From NCBI RefSeq assembly GCF_003977665.1, contig NZ_RYYV01000013.1:62001-126000 (forward strand): a stretch of 64,000 nucleotides of DNA, given 5' to 3'. The notes below the pieces were generated by a model. The model was not told the DNA's origin. It saw nothing but the letters and a program-made list of their open reading frames with translations, and did not search any database. Below, piece after piece: positions 49,657 to 55,130 of the stretch (position 1 is the stretch's first letter; every line of letters begins with the position of its first letter). This DNA comes from Dyella choica (GTDB lineage: Bacteria; Pseudomonadota; Gammaproteobacteria; Xanthomonadales; Rhodanobacteraceae). The position numbers and the translations under genes were made by a program.

Positions 49657-51075
49657 CTACATCTCCAGATGCATGCGCACCCCGTAAATGAATACGGGTC
49701 CGCGACGGTCCGCGTTGTAGCCGGGGTTGAGGATCAGCTGCAAATCGGGGCTGATCTGAACACCCTTGTAGAGGTGGTAGTTGTAGTAGGTCTCCAGGAC
49801 TTGTTCGCGCCCGTAGCGAGTGAGCTGCCCGTCACCCAGGAAGCCGCCCAGGCCGCCGGCGGCAAGGTATTCGCGATGCTGGCGATTCAAGCCCGCGGTG
49901 GAGTAGGCGATGCCAAACACGTCGTCCGGCCGCTTCCAGTGCGTGCCGTTGATGGAAAGGCCGCCCGACAGTACATTGTCGATTTCGGTAAACGCATATT
50001 CCTCGCTGCGATCGTTGGCCGAACTGGCGCGCAGGAACAGGCCCACGTCGCGGCTCAATCGCTGCTCGAAGCTGATGCCATAGCCCACCTTGGACGAAGG
50101 CTTGCGTACGCTGGTCACATCGGGGGGATTGCCGGTGCCTTCGGCGGCGGCGATCGCATCCAGATAGTTGCCGGCCCAACTGTGGTTGCGAAACGCCATG
50201 ACACGCACGAGGCCGGGCAGCTCTCCGAGCTTGTGATCGTGTTCCACTTCCAGATTGTCGCCGTGATAGGTCCAGATCCGGTGGTTGAGCGTCGTGCCGT
50301 TGGCCTCCTTGGGTTCCATGAAGCGGCCCACGCGCAGCACCCAGTTATCCCAATACAACTCGCCCGCGCCGCCGATGGTGTAGGCGCGAGCATCGGCGGC
50401 GTAGTCCCAGGCGCCATGCGTGATCATCGACCAGTTCAGGAACTGCGTGCGGGGATCATTGGCGTAGGTGTTTTTTTCGAAGATGTCGGTCAGGGTGAGC
50501 TTGCCCAGCGTCACCACGAAACGGCGCGAATCGTAGTTGCCGGCGAGCTGGTTCGGGCCGTCCTCGACATGCACGGAATCGCCGCCCAGATTGAAGCTCT
50601 GCCGCAAATACCAGCGCGCCAGGTAGCCACGCGGATGCGTGCCGCCGTTCTTCTGGATTTCGCCATTGTTGATGCTGGCGAGCCCGAAAAGATGCGACAG
50701 CGGCGTGCCCACCACGACTTCCGGATTGACGTAGATCTCGCTGCCTTTCCACAAGCGTGCGCCCATGTACATGGTGAAGGTCCAGGTGTAACTGTCTTCG
50801 GGCGCTGTCGACAGGCTTTGCGGACCGGTATAGGGCGCGCTGAAACCGTCCTTGTGCTGATACACGTAAGTGGTTTGCGCGTGGAAGTTCCAGCGTTCCT
50901 CACTGGTGTCGGTGGAGTTGCTGGTTTGCGCCGGAGCCGGCGGTGAGCCGCGTCCGGACTCGGTCGACGCAAGACTGGTGTCCTGAGCCTTGGCAGGTGC
51001 CGTACAAGCCATGGTTCCCAGCATGAACAGCAGTGCGGGGGAGTGTTTTCGAGCGATGTGAGTCTGGGTGTGCAT
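49657..51075 (-). CDS. OprB-like carbohydrate-selective porin
   Basis: A 472-residue outer-membrane protein: signal peptide residues 1-30 ('TAPAKAQD'), then 'WNFHAQTTYVYQHKDGFSAPY', 'GARLWKGSEIYVNPEV', 'NYDSRRFVVTLGKLTLTDIF' and the terminal 'FIYGVRMHLEM'. These are OprB features (16-strand barrel for sugars). It follows the NRAMP-related gene by 196 bp on the same strand and may or may not be part of that unit. Confidence 0.87.
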   Translation of the reverse strand: MHTQTHIARKHSPALLFMLGTMACTAPAKAQDTSLASTESGRGSPPAPAQTSNSTDTSEERWNFHAQTTYVYQHKDGFSAPYTGPQSLSTAPEDSYTWTFTMYMGARLWKGSEIYVNPEVVVGTPLSHLFGLASINNGEIQKNGGTHPRGYLARWYLRQSFNLGGDSVHVEDGPNQLAGNYDSRRFVVTLGKLTLTDIFEKNTYANDPRTQFLNWSMITHGAWDYAADARAYTIGGAGELYWDNWVLRVGRFMEPKEANGTTLNHRIWTYHGDNLEVEHDHKLGELPGLVRVMAFRNHSWAGNYLDAIAAAEGTGNPPDVTSVRKPSSKVGYGISFEQRLSRDVGLFLRASSANDRSEEYAFTEIDNVLSGGLSINGTHWKRPDDVFGIAYSTAGLNRQHREYLAAGGLGGFLGDGQLTRYGREQVLETYYNYHLYKGVQISPDLQLILNPGYNADRRGPVFIYGVRMHLEM

Positions 51076-51271: not shown

Positions 51272-52915
51272 TCAGGACTTGGCCAGCACAAGCTGCACCA
51301 CCTTCACGATGGCAAGAATCAGCGCAGCGGCCAGATAGGCGCGCAACACGCCCAGCCAGATGCGCCGGCGCATGCTCATCTGTGCCGGGGGCAGCTTGCT
51401 CAGCGGCGGCATGCGCCATTGGGCTTTACCGACGGCGAAGCTTTCCGGCACCGTGGCGGTGGGGCGGCGCCAATGCAGGACTCCAAATGTGATAGCGATC
51501 GCCAGCGCCAACACGCCACCGCCGACGAGCAGGCTGATGATTTGCCCACTGCTGATCGAGGGGTACAGCACCGAGGCAGTGAGGATGATCGACAGCAACA
51601 CCAGCACTGCCACTACCGCAGTAGTAAAGAGATTGGTGATGGGCTTGTTGACCCACGGTCCCAATACGGCCTTGTCGTTGCACAACAGCAGCAGGAACAC
51701 GGACGCGCCCGGCAGCAGGATGCCGGCCAGGGTTTGTACGGCATTGGTGATGATGCCCAGCGGAGCGTTGGGAATCAGCACCAAAGCTGCGGATGCGGCA
51801 ACCAGCAAGGCATATACGGCATAGAAAAGCTTCGCTTCGGTAGGTTTGCGATGCAGCGAATGGTTGACCGCCAGCACATCGCCCACGGCATAAGCCGTCG
51901 ACAAGGACACTGCCGCAGCGCCGATGATGCTGGCGTCGATCAGGGCGATCGAAAACAGCACCGAAGGCGTGGCGCCCACGTATTTGGCAATGCCTTGAGC
52001 CACCGCGCCGGCATCCGCGAACTGTCCCATTTCCGGCCGGCCGGCAAACGTGGCGGCGGTAAACGCCATCATCGCAATGGCGCCGATGATGACCAACACG
52101 ATGCCGATCCACAGATCCGCTTTCTCGTACTTCATGAAGCGCGGCGTGATGCGCTTGTCGATCACATAGCTTTGCTGGAAGAACAGCTGCCAGGGCGCCA
52201 CCGTGGTGCCGACGATGGCAATGATCAGCAGCATCACGTCGCTCAGCGGTGCCCCCTTGGGCATGCCCGGCACCAGCATGTTGTGCGCGATCTGCCCTAC
52301 CGGCGGATGCACCATCAGCAGCACCGGCACCAGCAGCAGGCTGCCCACTACCAGCAGCAGGGCAAACCGCTCGAAACGCCGGAAGTTACCGGTGGAAGCG
52401 GTGATGATGATCAGCGTCGCCGCGATCATCACCCCCCCATTACGCGAAAGGCCCAGATGATCCAGCCCCAAGCTGATCCCGATGAATTCGGTGACGATGG
52501 TCAATGCGTTGAGGATGAACAGATCGATCACGCTGAATGCGCCCCAGAATTTGCCGAAGCGTTCAAGGATCAGGCGTGCATGGCCTACGCCCGTTACTGC
52601 GCCCAGGCGCAGCACCATCTCCTGGTTTACGTACAGCACCGGGATCAGCAGCGACAGCGTCCACAACAGCACCGTGCCGTAGTTCTGGCCGGCCTGGGTA
52701 TAGGTGCTGAAGGCGCCGGCGTCGTTGTCGCCCACCATTACGATCAGCCCAGGGCCGAGTATGGCGAGCAGGGTGCGCAAACGGGCTCCCCAGCTGTTGC
52801 GTTGCGCGTGGTCGTTATAGGCGATGGTGCCGAGTGCGCCGCGGATATCGCCCACATGGGCGCTATCGAGCACGGCGGTGTCGTTGGCTTGTTCTAATTC
52901 GATGACGGTACTCAC
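51272..52915 (-). CDS. NRAMP-related divalent metal transporter with unusual metal-site motifs
   Basis: A 547-residue membrane protein with about 11 helices. The helix-1 site reads 'GDNDAGAFSTYTQAG' (D63-N64-D65) where classical NRAMP proteins have DPGN, and helix 6 reads 'TTVAPWQLFFQQS' (A240-P241-W242) where they have (A/T)MPH. This places it outside canonical Mn/Fe importers and nearer NRAMP-related transporters, some of which move Mg2+ or other hard ions; its ion is unknown. I use GTG 52915 (AAGG eight bases upstream); ATG 52975 is possible. It follows the AdoMetDC-like gene. Confidence 0.85.
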   Translation of the reverse strand: MSTVIELEQANDTAVLDSAHVGDIRGALGTIAYNDHAQRNSWGARLRTLLAILGPGLIVMVGDNDAGAFSTYTQAGQNYGTVLLWTLSLLIPVLYVNQEMVLRLGAVTGVGHARLILERFGKFWGAFSVIDLFILNALTIVTEFIGISLGLDHLGLSRNGGVMIAATLIIITASTGNFRRFERFALLLVVGSLLLVPVLLMVHPPVGQIAHNMLVPGMPKGAPLSDVMLLIIAIVGTTVAPWQLFFQQSYVIDKRITPRFMKYEKADLWIGIVLVIIGAIAMMAFTAATFAGRPEMGQFADAGAVAQGIAKYVGATPSVLFSIALIDASIIGAAAVSLSTAYAVGDVLAVNHSLHRKPTEAKLFYAVYALLVAASAALVLIPNAPLGIITNAVQTLAGILLPGASVFLLLLCNDKAVLGPWVNKPITNLFTTAVVAVLVLLSIILTASVLYPSISSGQIISLLVGGGVLALAIAITFGVLHWRRPTATVPESFAVGKAQWRMPPLSKLPPAQMSMRRRIWLGVLRAYLAAALILAIVKVVQLVLAKS

Positions 52916-52981
52916 GGGTAAGCCTTGTTGTGGAGCAATGGACGATGGAGTGATGGGCAGGCAGGCGCGCGGCAACAGGAG

Positions 52982-53416
52982 CTAGACGACCCTCCGTACC
53001 GGCTTGGCAAGGAAGACTTCCGTCGGCTTGCGTGGCGTGCGTCCCTGCACCGGCAGCGATTGACCATCGCGCTGCACGCGATGCAGCAGCGCACGCAGCG
53101 GCCGGAATTCATCGCGCAGGCCGTTGAAAACCTGCATGGCGGCGGTGATTTCCGCCGCTTCGCATTGCGCCACGAACAGATCCGCGATCACTGCATCGCG
53201 GCGCGGAAAAGTGCGTAACACCAGATGGATGCCGTTGCCGGTCATTGCGCCGATCACCCCGTCCTGCTCGGTCGGGGTGAAGTGCTCGTAACGGATCGGC
53301 AGATGACGTCGCGCCACCAGCGCCGCGCAATGGGCCTGGATGGCCTGAGGAGAGGTCAGCAGCGCTTTGGTTGCGCAGCAGTCGAACCATTCGCCGACGA
53401 AATGGATGTTCTTCAT
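52982..53416 (-). CDS. AdoMet-decarboxylase-fold protein lacking the pyruvoyl serine
   Basis: A 144-residue protein. 'IHFVGEWFDC' aligns with the 'HLVAEFYEC' opening of prokaryotic AdoMet decarboxylase, 'EHFTPTEQDGVIG' with 'HRFLPYGVSGVV', and 'LRTFPRRDAVIADLF' with 'IHTWPEYGYAAIDLF'. But the cleavage site 'ESH' is replaced by 'TGN' (59-61) and the histidine of 'IHTWPE' by R68, so it cannot self-process in the known way. It may be a sensor or binding protein. Homology is inferred by eye. It lies between a small gene and the transporter gene. Confidence 0.65.
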   Translation of the reverse strand: MKNIHFVGEWFDCCATKALLTSPQAIQAHCAALVARRHLPIRYEHFTPTEQDGVIGAMTGNGIHLVLRTFPRRDAVIADLFVAQCEAAEITAAMQVFNGLRDEFRPLRALLHRVQRDGQSLPVQGRTPRKPTEVFLAKPVRRVV

Positions 53417-53504
53417 GGAAGTGTCTCGCTTTCGGGGCCGCCCGCCATGCGGGCGACACAAAGGGAATACCCGGACGCAGGCACAGGCGTCCGGGCTGCG
53501 AAGG

Positions 53505-53687
53505 TCAGGAATGGTCAGCGTGACGGCGTCGTTGCCCGATGCGCTGGCACCAGCGCGCCGAGGCGCGCAGCAGCGTCATGACCAGGCCCGGCGCTGTAGG
53601 TTTGGCCGTGCGGCAGGCGAGATAAGCATTGAGCAGCTGATCCGGCGTATGCATCGGCCGGCGTGCGTGCAGGAAGAAGAGTTGCAT
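53505..53687 (-). CDS. Small basic protein of unknown function (60 residues)
   Basis: The product begins 'MQLFFLHARRPMHTPDQLLNAYLAC' and ends in an Arg/His-rich tail ('WCQRIGQRRRHADHS'). The start has GAGGACCGAGCC upstream. It lies between the gene at 53834 and the AdoMetDC-like gene on the same strand. The pattern 'LLNAYLACR' with two cysteines and several histidines could be metal-related; no family recognised. Confidence 0.5.
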   Translation of the reverse strand: MQLFFLHARRPMHTPDQLLNAYLACRTAKPTAPGLVMTLLRASARWCQRIGQRRRHADHS

Positions 53688-53833
53688 GGCTCGGTCCTCG
53701 TGATTCGCCGCATGGGCGACACGGGCGCGAGCCGGCTCAGGTCGTGGTGACGTGAGCAGGATGCGTCGCGTGCGCGTCCAGGCGGAAGAGATTGGAGAGC
53801 GGGTTGTGGGTCGCAGGAGGAGGTCGCATGGGA

Positions 53834-54151
53834 TCAACCGTGGGCGTACTGGCGCGACGGAGGGCGCAGGCCGGCGTTACGGATACGCCAATGCATGCGC
53901 GACTTGAAGGCGACGCGTGCCGCCTTCATGCGCGGATGAGGCTTGCTGGCGGTATCGGCAGCCCAGTGGCATTCCAGCACGCCCGTGACAGCGTTGCGGG
54001 ACCACCGCGCGCGCAGCGGTGCAGCTTGGGACTGGGAGGGAGCGGGCGCGACCGGACGCACTCGGGTCCAGCTGCCGCTCGATGCCTTGTAGGGATGAAA
54101 GGTGCCTGCCGCGCGACGGCGGACTGCACGCAGATGCAGCTTGTTGTTCAT
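53834..54151 (-). CDS. Small basic protein of unknown function (105 residues)
   Basis: First gene of the divergent operon. It is very rich in Arg and Ala; the central 'RARWSRNAVTGVLECHWAAD' looks like a short beta-hairpin motif with one Cys and one His, and flanking regions are probably disordered. A GAGGTGAG ribosome-binding site stands just before ATG 54151. I do not recognise it. Codon positions are GC-rich as in its neighbours, but shadows in other frames are also open, so some doubt remains. Confidence 0.55.
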   Translation of the reverse strand: MNNKLHLRAVRRRAAGTFHPYKASSGSWTRVRPVAPAPSQSQAAPLRARWSRNAVTGVLECHWAADTASKPHPRMKAARVAFKSRMHWRIRNAGLRPPSRQYAHG

Positions 54152-54200
54152 GACTCACCTCGTGAAGCGCCAGCAGCGGCGCTTGAGGCGAGCCGGACTT

Positions 54201-54314
54201 TCCTAGTCGCGGAAAGCGCCGGCCGACCGGCAGCGGTCGCCGATGGGGCTTACGTTGTTCAACTGGCACGCCAACGTCGGAAAACAGCATCCGAAGCTGG
54301 CGCATCGACTAGGA
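54201..54314 (-). ncRNA. Structured leader RNA candidate of the metal-related operon
   Basis: In the about 225-nt leader before ATG 54151, a long-range helix joins 54306-54314 (CGACTAGGA on plus) with 54201-54209 (its exact complement). Inside are a perfect 6-bp hairpin with a 4-base loop (54224-54239), a 5-bp helix 54241-54245/54303-54307 (partly exclusive with the outer one) and a two-part hairpin 54269-54302 (7 bp with one G-T, then TCGGA/TCCGA). That is the shape of a junction RNA. Conserved bases of the yybP-ykoY (Mn) or M-box (Mg) riboswitches are not apparent. Confidence 0.5.
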
Positions 54315-54384
54315 GGGTTACTGTCCATTTCTCGCTATGGGATTAGGTGACAAGTGCCGCCGGGGGCTTCCCGAAGGCCTGCGC

Positions 54385-54414
54385 AAGATACCCATGGGGG
54401 TATGCGTGTGTCAA
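54385..54414 (-). promoter_or_regulatory. Divergent promoter with CsoR/RcnR-type operator in its spacer
   Basis: On the minus strand a perfect -35 TTGACA (54409-54414) and a -10 TATCTT (54385-54390) are 18 bp apart. The palindrome ATACCC-N4-GGGTAT (54388-54403) occupies the spacer and overlaps the -10. The repeat resembles operators of the CsoR/RcnR family (G/C tracts flanked by AT), and a member of that family is encoded at 54543-54821. The promoter would drive 53834-54151 and the genes beyond. Confidence 0.7.
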
Positions 54415-54542
54415 CCCGGAAAATCGGCCGCTGGGCACGGGGATGAGGCGATTCAAGGCTTGTCTCATCAAGCAGGCTGCACATTCGGTCATGCGTCTGA
54501 TTTTCACTTGCGTGAAACGCGCGGACTTACGAAACTCTCGTC

Positions 54543-54821
54543 ATGCCGCATACTGTTCGAGAAAGAGCCAAGCTGCTCAACCGCGCCAAAAGACTTCGTG
54601 GCCAGATCGAAGCCATCGAGCGCTCCCTCAGCGAAGAGGACGACTGTTCGCTCATCCTGCACCAGATCGTCGCGGCGCGCGGTGCCATCAATGGCCTGCT
54701 GACCCAGGTGATCGAGGGCCACATCCGTGAGCATCTGCTGGACGACAACGGTCACACCTCCGAGGCGAAGCGACGCGACGCGGAAGAGCTGATTGCGGCG
54801 TTGAAGACGTACATCAAGTAG
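54543..54821 (+). CDS. CsoR/RcnR/FrmR-family metal- or formaldehyde-responsive repressor
   Basis: A 92-residue all-helical DUF156 regulator. H3, C35, H60 and H64 ('MPHTVRERAK', 'DDCSLILHQIVAARGAINGL', 'EGHIREHL') match the sensor positions of RcnR (Ni/Co) and FrmR (formaldehyde). The N-terminal proline-histidine 'MPHT' is FrmR-like. It lacks the C-terminal Cys of CsoR. No frmA-like gene is adjacent; instead, a metal-transporter operon is divergent, so a metal effector is favoured here. An operator-like palindrome lies 140 bp upstream. Confidence 0.9.
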   Translation: MPHTVRERAKLLNRAKRLRGQIEAIERSLSEEDDCSLILHQIVAARGAINGLLTQVIEGHIREHLLDDNGHTSEAKRRDAEELIAALKTYIK

Positions 54822-54883
54822 CGGCTGCCGTTGCTGCACACTCGCTGTGCGCCGTCATTCCGCTTTCGCGCACCGCCTCCAAA

Positions 54884-55017
54884 TGCCTCGTAGTCATTCC
54901 GGCGCAGGCCGGAATCCAGTTCAAACACGTCGTGCGAAGCACTCAACACCAAGATGTCGTGTCCTTCGGACGCATTTTGGACTGGATTCCGGCCTGCGCC
55001 GGAATGACCACAAGGCA
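54884..55017. repeat. Copy 2 of the 127-bp-type inverted-repeat element
   Basis: Perfect 28-bp arms at 54893-54920 and 54981-55008 (GTCATTCCGGCGCAGG...), with similarity extending to 54884 and 55017. The middle holds CGAAGCACTCAACACC and GTGTCCTTCGGACGC. It follows the repressor gene; a partial arm-like sequence is seen just before it (around 54853). Confidence 0.85.
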
Positions 55018-55130
55018 CTACGAAGCCCCGCGCTCAAGCAATCGATTTCCCCGGACAGCAGTGCGCTTTCGCGGGAAAGACGGCCAGGTGATTTAGCGCT
55101 GATCATTCAGCAAGCCTGACTCGCAGCCAT

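Follow-up and report, generated by a model that had tools for sequence, protein, structure and literature searches.

Which ion does a metal operon handle when it combines an NRAMP-related transporter with a catalytically dead relative of AdoMetDC and a repressor of the RcnR type, and how is such an operon controlled? The question is raised by a locus of Dyella choica (Rhodanobacteraceae), which lies within a stretch of 64,000 nucleotides (hereafter the window; NCBI RefSeq assembly GCF_003977665.1, contig NZ_RYYV01000013.1, positions 62,001 to 126,000, forward strand). A first-pass annotation had described five open reading frames (ORFs) here, with a repressor gene divergent from four genes on one strand, and had read them as an operon that handles a divalent ion, with a CsoR-family repressor, an AdoMetDC-like pseudoenzyme and a transporter related to NRAMP. 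All five coordinates and strands were verified (Table 1), and the operon so described, its repressor being of the RcnR type, is supported by Pfam scores and by the lack of the catalytic residues in 15 of 15 pseudoenzyme homologues. In addition to these genes, the locus holds an OprB-family porin, a promoter with a candidate operator, and a structured leader RNA. The chief new finding is that mgtA has this leader RNA too. The locus is probably an operon for Mg2+ uptake, controlled by a Ni/Co-type repressor and by a new leader RNA that is a candidate for responding to Mg2+.

The RNA, which lies between the promoter and the first small ORF, was found with the first model in 156 of 233 genomes of the family. 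A second copy in the same genome (contig C17, 49041-49192) precedes an 81-residue small ORF, MgtA (TIGR01524, 1264 bits; cut-off 611), a NaPi transporter and an adaptor-like gene. For 65 copies, hand-chosen from the family-search matches with repeat fetches of one place excluded and therefore not a random sample, the first recognised gene behind the RNA is mgtA in 36, the pseudoenzyme in 15, an RND adaptor in eight, OprB in two, and NRAMP, a TonB receptor and NaPi in one each; the last copy meets a contig end. Of the eight RND adaptors, two were tested; each passes the cut-off for RND adaptors in general and falls short of the one for the CzcB model. Of 151 genomes whose MgtA is close (E = 0), 150 have the RNA, as do 2 of the 34 whose MgtA is divergent, and six RNA-positive genomes have no close MgtA; these counts ignore phylogeny, and the genomes are not phylogenetically independent. 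We prefer a Mg2+ reading because the gene most often found behind the RNA encodes a Mg2+ pump.

Across the order, 63 of 299 genomes match, all within the family except for one weak hit, although absence elsewhere is weak evidence, as the large RNA searches scored 7 to 12 candidates per genome. That hit (G062, 28.8 bits) and one in G253 (24.6 bits, inside a predicted gene of the other strand) were taken as chance. Among the 80 best homologous NRAMP loci, some of them near-identical, the RNA was found at L036, L037 and L038, and all remaining matches have E-values of at least 0.43.

Sixteen leader copies share a fold of three stem-loops. Covariation was assessed on a MAFFT alignment made without structure (55 copies, 54 of them distinct; 500 shuffles). 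Pairing cells amount to 93.6% against 88.9% in the shuffles, a difference that relatedness alone can produce, and both sides have changed in 19 of 36 pairs (shuffle mean 9.8; reached by 0 of 500 shuffles), a count that is less affected by relatedness. The signal is lost when pair partners are slid. A pseudoknot is also proposed, in which CUAGUCG pairs with the loop of the last stem. It has weaker support than the stems, since a change on both sides is seen in one of its six pairs, across four sequences. The window leader has a fold z-score of -4.2, and its minimum-energy fold takes a long CUAGUCG/CGACUAG helix instead of the last stem. By eye, the leader stretch is better conserved than the 105-residue ORF behind it. 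A search of the leader against Rfam gave no match at E-values up to 1, and up to 10 the sole match is at chance level and on the other strand. The M-box (ykoK) and the Mg_sensor of Salmonella mgtA are Mg2+ leader RNAs, and neither Rfam model matches the window leader or that of mgtA in the same genome. No title or abstract opening that describes the RNA was found in the literature covered, outside which most subscription journals lie.

After the last stem, a further hairpin is predicted, in which the conserved 3' end of the RNA is paired to the Shine-Dalgarno (SD) region of the small ORF. At least 75% of the SD is paired in 46 of 52 leaders, compared with 41% after base-by-base shuffling of the part upstream; the 52 are the 65 copies minus identical segments and minus copies excluded by rule for lack of an SD and ATG. 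By eye, the hairpin pairs differ between lineages yet stay paired. In the predicted folds, this layout is that of a translational riboswitch or attenuator.

Almost every copy of the RNA is followed by a small ORF that has an SD. Among 16 complete copies of the 105-residue type, length ranges from 38 to 116 residues, with RPP near the end in 14 and RPPS[RC] in 10; among ORFs of other types, TVP (mostly TVPAPL) is common to 41 of 43 complete copies. Because its start site is paired in the predicted folds and its length varies so widely, the 105-residue ORF resembles a regulated leader ORF more than it does a delivery protein. For the same reasons, metal delivery by the basic peptides, which the first-pass annotation had offered alongside sensing, was set aside as a first choice. 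At L105 (4148-4441), L103 (4574-4816), L113 and L109, which belong to Bradyrhizobium and one other genome, small ORFs upstream of NRAMP share by eye a W...G.L.C.W motif with the window ORF; the leader RNA was not found at these four loci.

The transporter matches the structure of EleNRMT (7qia) best among solved structures, at 185.8 bits, and the next chain scores 69.2. Two motifs set NRMTs apart from Mn/Fe transporters, DxxG in place of DxxN and TxxA/T in place of A/CxxM, and EleNRMT is a Mg2+/Mn2+ transporter (both PMC8806188, from the accessible part of the paper). The site residues of the window protein are NDAGA and TTVA: the TxxA/T motif of helix 6 is present, and Ala stands where canonical NRAMPs have their Met ligand. 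Because this ligand is lost and the nearest relative is EleNRMT, the protein should work like an NRMT, although we do not file it as a member since one defining residue differs. The first-pass annotation had named no ion beyond a divalent one. That view is supported and can be narrowed: with a Mg2+ transporter as its nearest relative and a leader RNA in common with mgtA, the transporter likely moves Mg2+.

Small ORFs of 46-51 residues also stand directly upstream of NRAMP in 13 of the 80 homologous loci, mostly from Paraburkholderia, and start mostly with MxFALLVS or similar (L048, L051, L054, L061, L063, L067, L075, L082, L090, L092, L096, L098 and L099); they end 47-166 bp before the transporter gene. 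At L048 and L051, two NRAMP genes of one cluster stand in tandem, each preceded by its own ORF of this kind. Comparable starts were seen by eye in Aquitalea (L039, L043) and Andreprevotia (L114).

The pseudoenzyme is predicted to adopt the AdoMetDC fold (model pLDDT 82, with the last 20 residues disordered; match to 1vr7 with E 2.5e-8 and TMq 0.67). SpeD of Thermotoga maritima depends on pyruvoyl Ser63 and on Ser55, His68 and Cys83 as catalytic residues. In an alignment to 1tlu, none of these four is kept in any of 15 pseudoenzyme homologues, and position 68 is Arg in 14 of them. Twenty-five columns are invariant, and the protein is therefore under selection. Within the family, 15 of 233 genomes carry it, with 16 places in all. 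Beyond the family, a class-wide search gave matches in 10 of 369 genomes including D. choica itself, and six of the nine others (L117-L122) are ordinary SpeD proteins that retain the ESH motif in full alignment, L123-L125 not having been seen in full.

Behind the RNA, the gene following the pseudoenzyme is NRAMP in nine of 15 copies and a large receptor-like gene in six. With a seventh at a contig end (L156), such genes replace NRAMP in seven pseudoenzyme loci, and the three tested (L148, L149 and L154) are all TonB receptors, which makes a TonB-dependent route for a metal possible. L151, L153, L155 and L156 were assigned as TonB receptors by position, and the leader RNA is mostly found upstream of such loci. 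A CDF gene separates repressor and pseudoenzyme in L154 and L155; the L154 gene, the one tested, scores as DmeF. In Salmonella at very low Mg2+, transporters and polyamines rise and polyamines substitute for Mg2+ (PMC12421838, in the portion available), and therefore a role of the pseudoenzyme in polyamine synthesis is at most plausible.

RcnR binds Co through its N-terminus, His3, Glu34, Cys35, Glu63 and His64, and Ni through a similar set (PMC7055735, available text). The window repressor and that of L141 have His3, Cys35, Glu63 and His64, and L143 has Asp63. Position 34 is Asp rather than Glu in the window protein, and His60 is not kept, being Val in L141 and Tyr in L143. Scores fall below the NCBIfam equivalog cut-offs of both RcnR (76 against 138 bits) and FrmR (89.4 against 133 bits). 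The 6 intergenic regions compared have TTGACA in common at one aligned position, and the exact repeat ATACCCCCATGGGTAT comes after it in the window, L141 and L143; in the D. choica genome this repeat is the sole site within 2 mismatches. Among 17 genomes searched, a repressor at 84-100% identity occurs only in the three with the exact repeat (G000, G003 and G009), and weaker homologues (34-47%) occur in ten others. L142 and L147 have decayed repeats, and their genomes hold only 39% and 40% homologues. In G017 and G042, a homologue (47% and 43%) neighbours a gene judged by eye to be similar to RcnA, and ATACTGCCCCCTAGTAT lies between the two; ATACTCCCCTGAGTAT stands in the spacer upstream of the RNA at the loci of these genomes that were examined (L146 and L228). 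The repeat is thus likely the operator, a pairing that reflects co-occurrence in few genomes and not binding.

The neighbourhood is only partly stable. NRAMP, the pseudoenzyme and both small ORFs recur jointly in four loci on the Rhodanobacter side (L004, L005, L006 and L036), and NRAMP and the pseudoenzyme occur together in two of Dyella (L037 and L038); judged by gene content, this recurrence exceeds chance. By its transporter the genome stands close to Rhodanobacter, with 87% identity to that of L036, a Rhodanobacter metagenome-assembled genome, and 81% and 79% to those of L037 and L038; these three were not counted separately from G592, G053 and G017. Among the 17 loci drawn, three (the window, L141 and L143) have the repressor ortholog as a neighbour, and NRAMP is replaced in the seven loci above. 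The idea of one conserved five-gene unit, which would have followed from the first-pass annotation, was therefore rejected, repressor and NRAMP being exchangeable between loci. Among the 80 homologous NRAMP loci, an OprB-cluster porin is found in 24, a neighbour of the MgtC cluster in 18 (MgtC domain confirmed on one) and a DUF156 repressor, of two subclasses, somewhere in 17. The porin of the window exceeds the Pfam cut-off of 22.9 bits and so belongs to OprB; it is likely the last gene of the operon. The third codon position is the most variable in 19 of 19 sequence pairs of P0002, P0003 and P0004, with a modest excess for P0004, and therefore all three look translated. An inverted repeat behind the repressor gene (54876-55025), noticed by eye and also picked up as weak MIR168 matches on either strand, resembles a repeat element of intergenic DNA.

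Table 1 Features of the Dyella choica locus (positions are those of the window).
Feature	Position	Strand	Description
OprB-family porin	49657-51075	-	Pfam OprB 147.9 bits; same place behind NRAMP in relatives
NRAMP-related transporter	51272-52915	-	Pfam Nramp 259.9 bits; nearest solved relative EleNRMT (7qia)
AdoMetDC-fold pseudoenzyme	52982-53416	-	Pfam AdoMet_dc 33.1 bits (cut-off 25); fold model
Small ORF, 60 aa	53505-53687	-	55% and 73% identity to two relatives; third codon position most variable
Small ORF, 105 aa	53834-54151	-	First ORF after leader RNA; candidate regulatory leader ORF
Hairpin (predicted)	54152-54194	-	Pairs Shine-Dalgarno region GAGGUGAGUC with GGCUCGCCUC
Structured leader RNA (model R1 match)	54179-54339	-	Three stem-loops and proposed pseudoknot
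Predicted promoter	54385-54414	-	-35 TTGACA (54414-54409), -10 TATCTT (54390-54385)
Inverted repeat ATACCCATGGGGGTAT, candidate repressor operator	54388-54403	.	16 bp, between -35 and -10
RcnR/FrmR-like repressor	54543-54821	+	Pfam Trns_repr_metal 73.3 bits; H3, C35, E63, H64
Gaps between ORFs			391 bp (divergent), 146, 88, 66 bp

We therefore favour, as the probable explanation, an operon in which the leader RNA, the small ORFs, the pseudoenzyme, the NRMT-like transporter and the porin together would serve Mg2+ uptake under two layers of control. In the first, the RcnR-type repressor would sit on the inverted repeat between the -35 and -10 elements and be released at high Ni(II) or Co(II). 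In the second, the leader RNA would hide or free the ribosome-binding site of the first small ORF, probably in answer to cellular Mg2+, and translation of this ORF would set the expression of the genes downstream. The porin would pass the ion across the outer membrane and the NRMT-like protein would carry it into the cell. The pseudoenzyme would most likely tune polyamine synthesis, because polyamines stand in for Mg2+. A wider proposal is possible, although we hold it tentatively and short of probable: a new class of metal-sensing riboswitch, likely for Mg2+ and so far of one bacterial family, that controls mgtA, the NRMT-like operon, RND adaptors and TonB receptors through a small leader ORF, with a Ni/Co repressor layered above it at the NRMT-like operon and a dead AdoMetDC that links Mg2+ supply to polyamines.

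Several observations weigh against Mg2+ uptake under this control. In helix 1 the transporter lacks the DxxG motif of NRMTs (DAGA, against DAGG in EleNRMT). A Ni/Co-type repressor on a Mg2+ importer is unexpected, and its ortholog is adjacent in few of the loci drawn; such a repressor could serve to increase Mg2+ import under competition from Ni/Co. L144 (G046) carries the repeat with a single change, although the search of its genome gave no repressor match. A generic palindrome scan of 81 upstream regions found 4 loci, against a shuffle mean of 3.6 (maximum 8) and 0 of 81 in a downstream control, which gives no support to a palindromic site shared across all loci. The two outer G's of the SD hairpin are shared with the last stem, with which the CUAGUCG helix partly competes, and the folds do not show how a ligand would switch the hairpin. 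Shared ancestry also tempers the association of the RNA with MgtA, and its position before RND adaptors fits transition-metal stress as well as Mg2+. It is rather unlikely, if a real contender, that the leader binds no ligand and acts as a ribosome-read attenuator, like mgtL or the mgtCBR leader, with a small ORF that senses low Mg2+ or proline through its Pro motif and sets folding or Rho access. The SD-bearing ORF that nearly always follows the RNA, with its recurrent TVP or RPP, is consistent with this, and short leader ORFs are known before Salmonella mgtCBR (PMC3641672, accessible part); a covarying structure upstream of the ORF, which in Rhodanobacter is by eye better conserved than the ORF itself, argues against it.

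The ligand-type residues of the repressor raise a different possibility, to which we assign a low probability, namely that RNA and repressor both sense Ni/Co and that the genes limit damage in excess of these metals through efflux and Mg2+ import. A DmeF gene follows the porin in L145 and another adjoins the pseudoenzyme in L154 (NCBIfam 495 and 372 bits; cut-off 250), a Ni/Co exporter lies near the L144 locus (443 bits; cut-off 195), and with the RND adaptors behind eight of the 65 RNAs, a Ni/Co ligand would fit these copies also. Against it stand the more than half of the 65 copies that precede mgtA, and the mgtA promoters inspected, in which the candidate operator was not seen by eye. Finally, the transporter might be an ordinary Mn2+/Fe2+ importer and the RNA merely a mark of general metal stress. 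Membership in the NRAMP family would allow this, and Mn2+ is also moved by EleNRMT (PMC8806188, same part), but the replacement of the canonical Met ligand by Ala, together with a second NRAMP on another contig of the genome that has a higher Pfam score, makes it very improbable.

If the RNA senses Mg2+, as we favour, it would add a class to the few known Mg2+ leader RNAs and provide a second system in which to test how an abundant ion is read by the cell. The operon also bears on how Mg2+ import is set under Ni/Co stress, on how Mg2+ passes the outer membrane, given a porin or TonB receptor under the same RNA, and on a possible coupling of Mg2+ to polyamines by a dead polyamine enzyme. All three questions are testable in soil bacteria of the Rhodanobacter and Dyella kind.

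Four parts of the locus resemble known systems and depart from them. The transporter is nearest by sequence to the NRMTs (EleNRMT and CabNRMT), with which it shares TxxA at helix 6 and the lost Met ligand, and differs from them in DxxA for DxxG, in its RcnR-type repressor and in a leader RNA unrelated to the M-box, which stands before some NRMT genes (PMC4072509, text as available). Like the M-box and Mg_sensor, the RNA is a 5' leader before mgtA or NRMT-like genes, but it matches neither model and is predicted to act on the SD of a small ORF. With RcnR and DmeR, the repressor shares H3, C35, E63 and H64, an inverted-repeat site, and homologues in relatives beside RcnA-like or DmeF genes; it differs in its likely target, an importer operon, and in scores under the RcnR and FrmR equivalog cut-offs. 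The AdoMetDC fold is likewise found in the prozyme of Trypanosoma brucei (5tvm; Foldseek E 5.8e-3), a catalytically dead paralogue (PMC5201418, accessible portion), and in the N-terminal domain of human spermine synthase (3c6k; E 2.7e-5). In contrast to both, the pseudoenzyme of the window is bacterial, small and encoded in metal operons.

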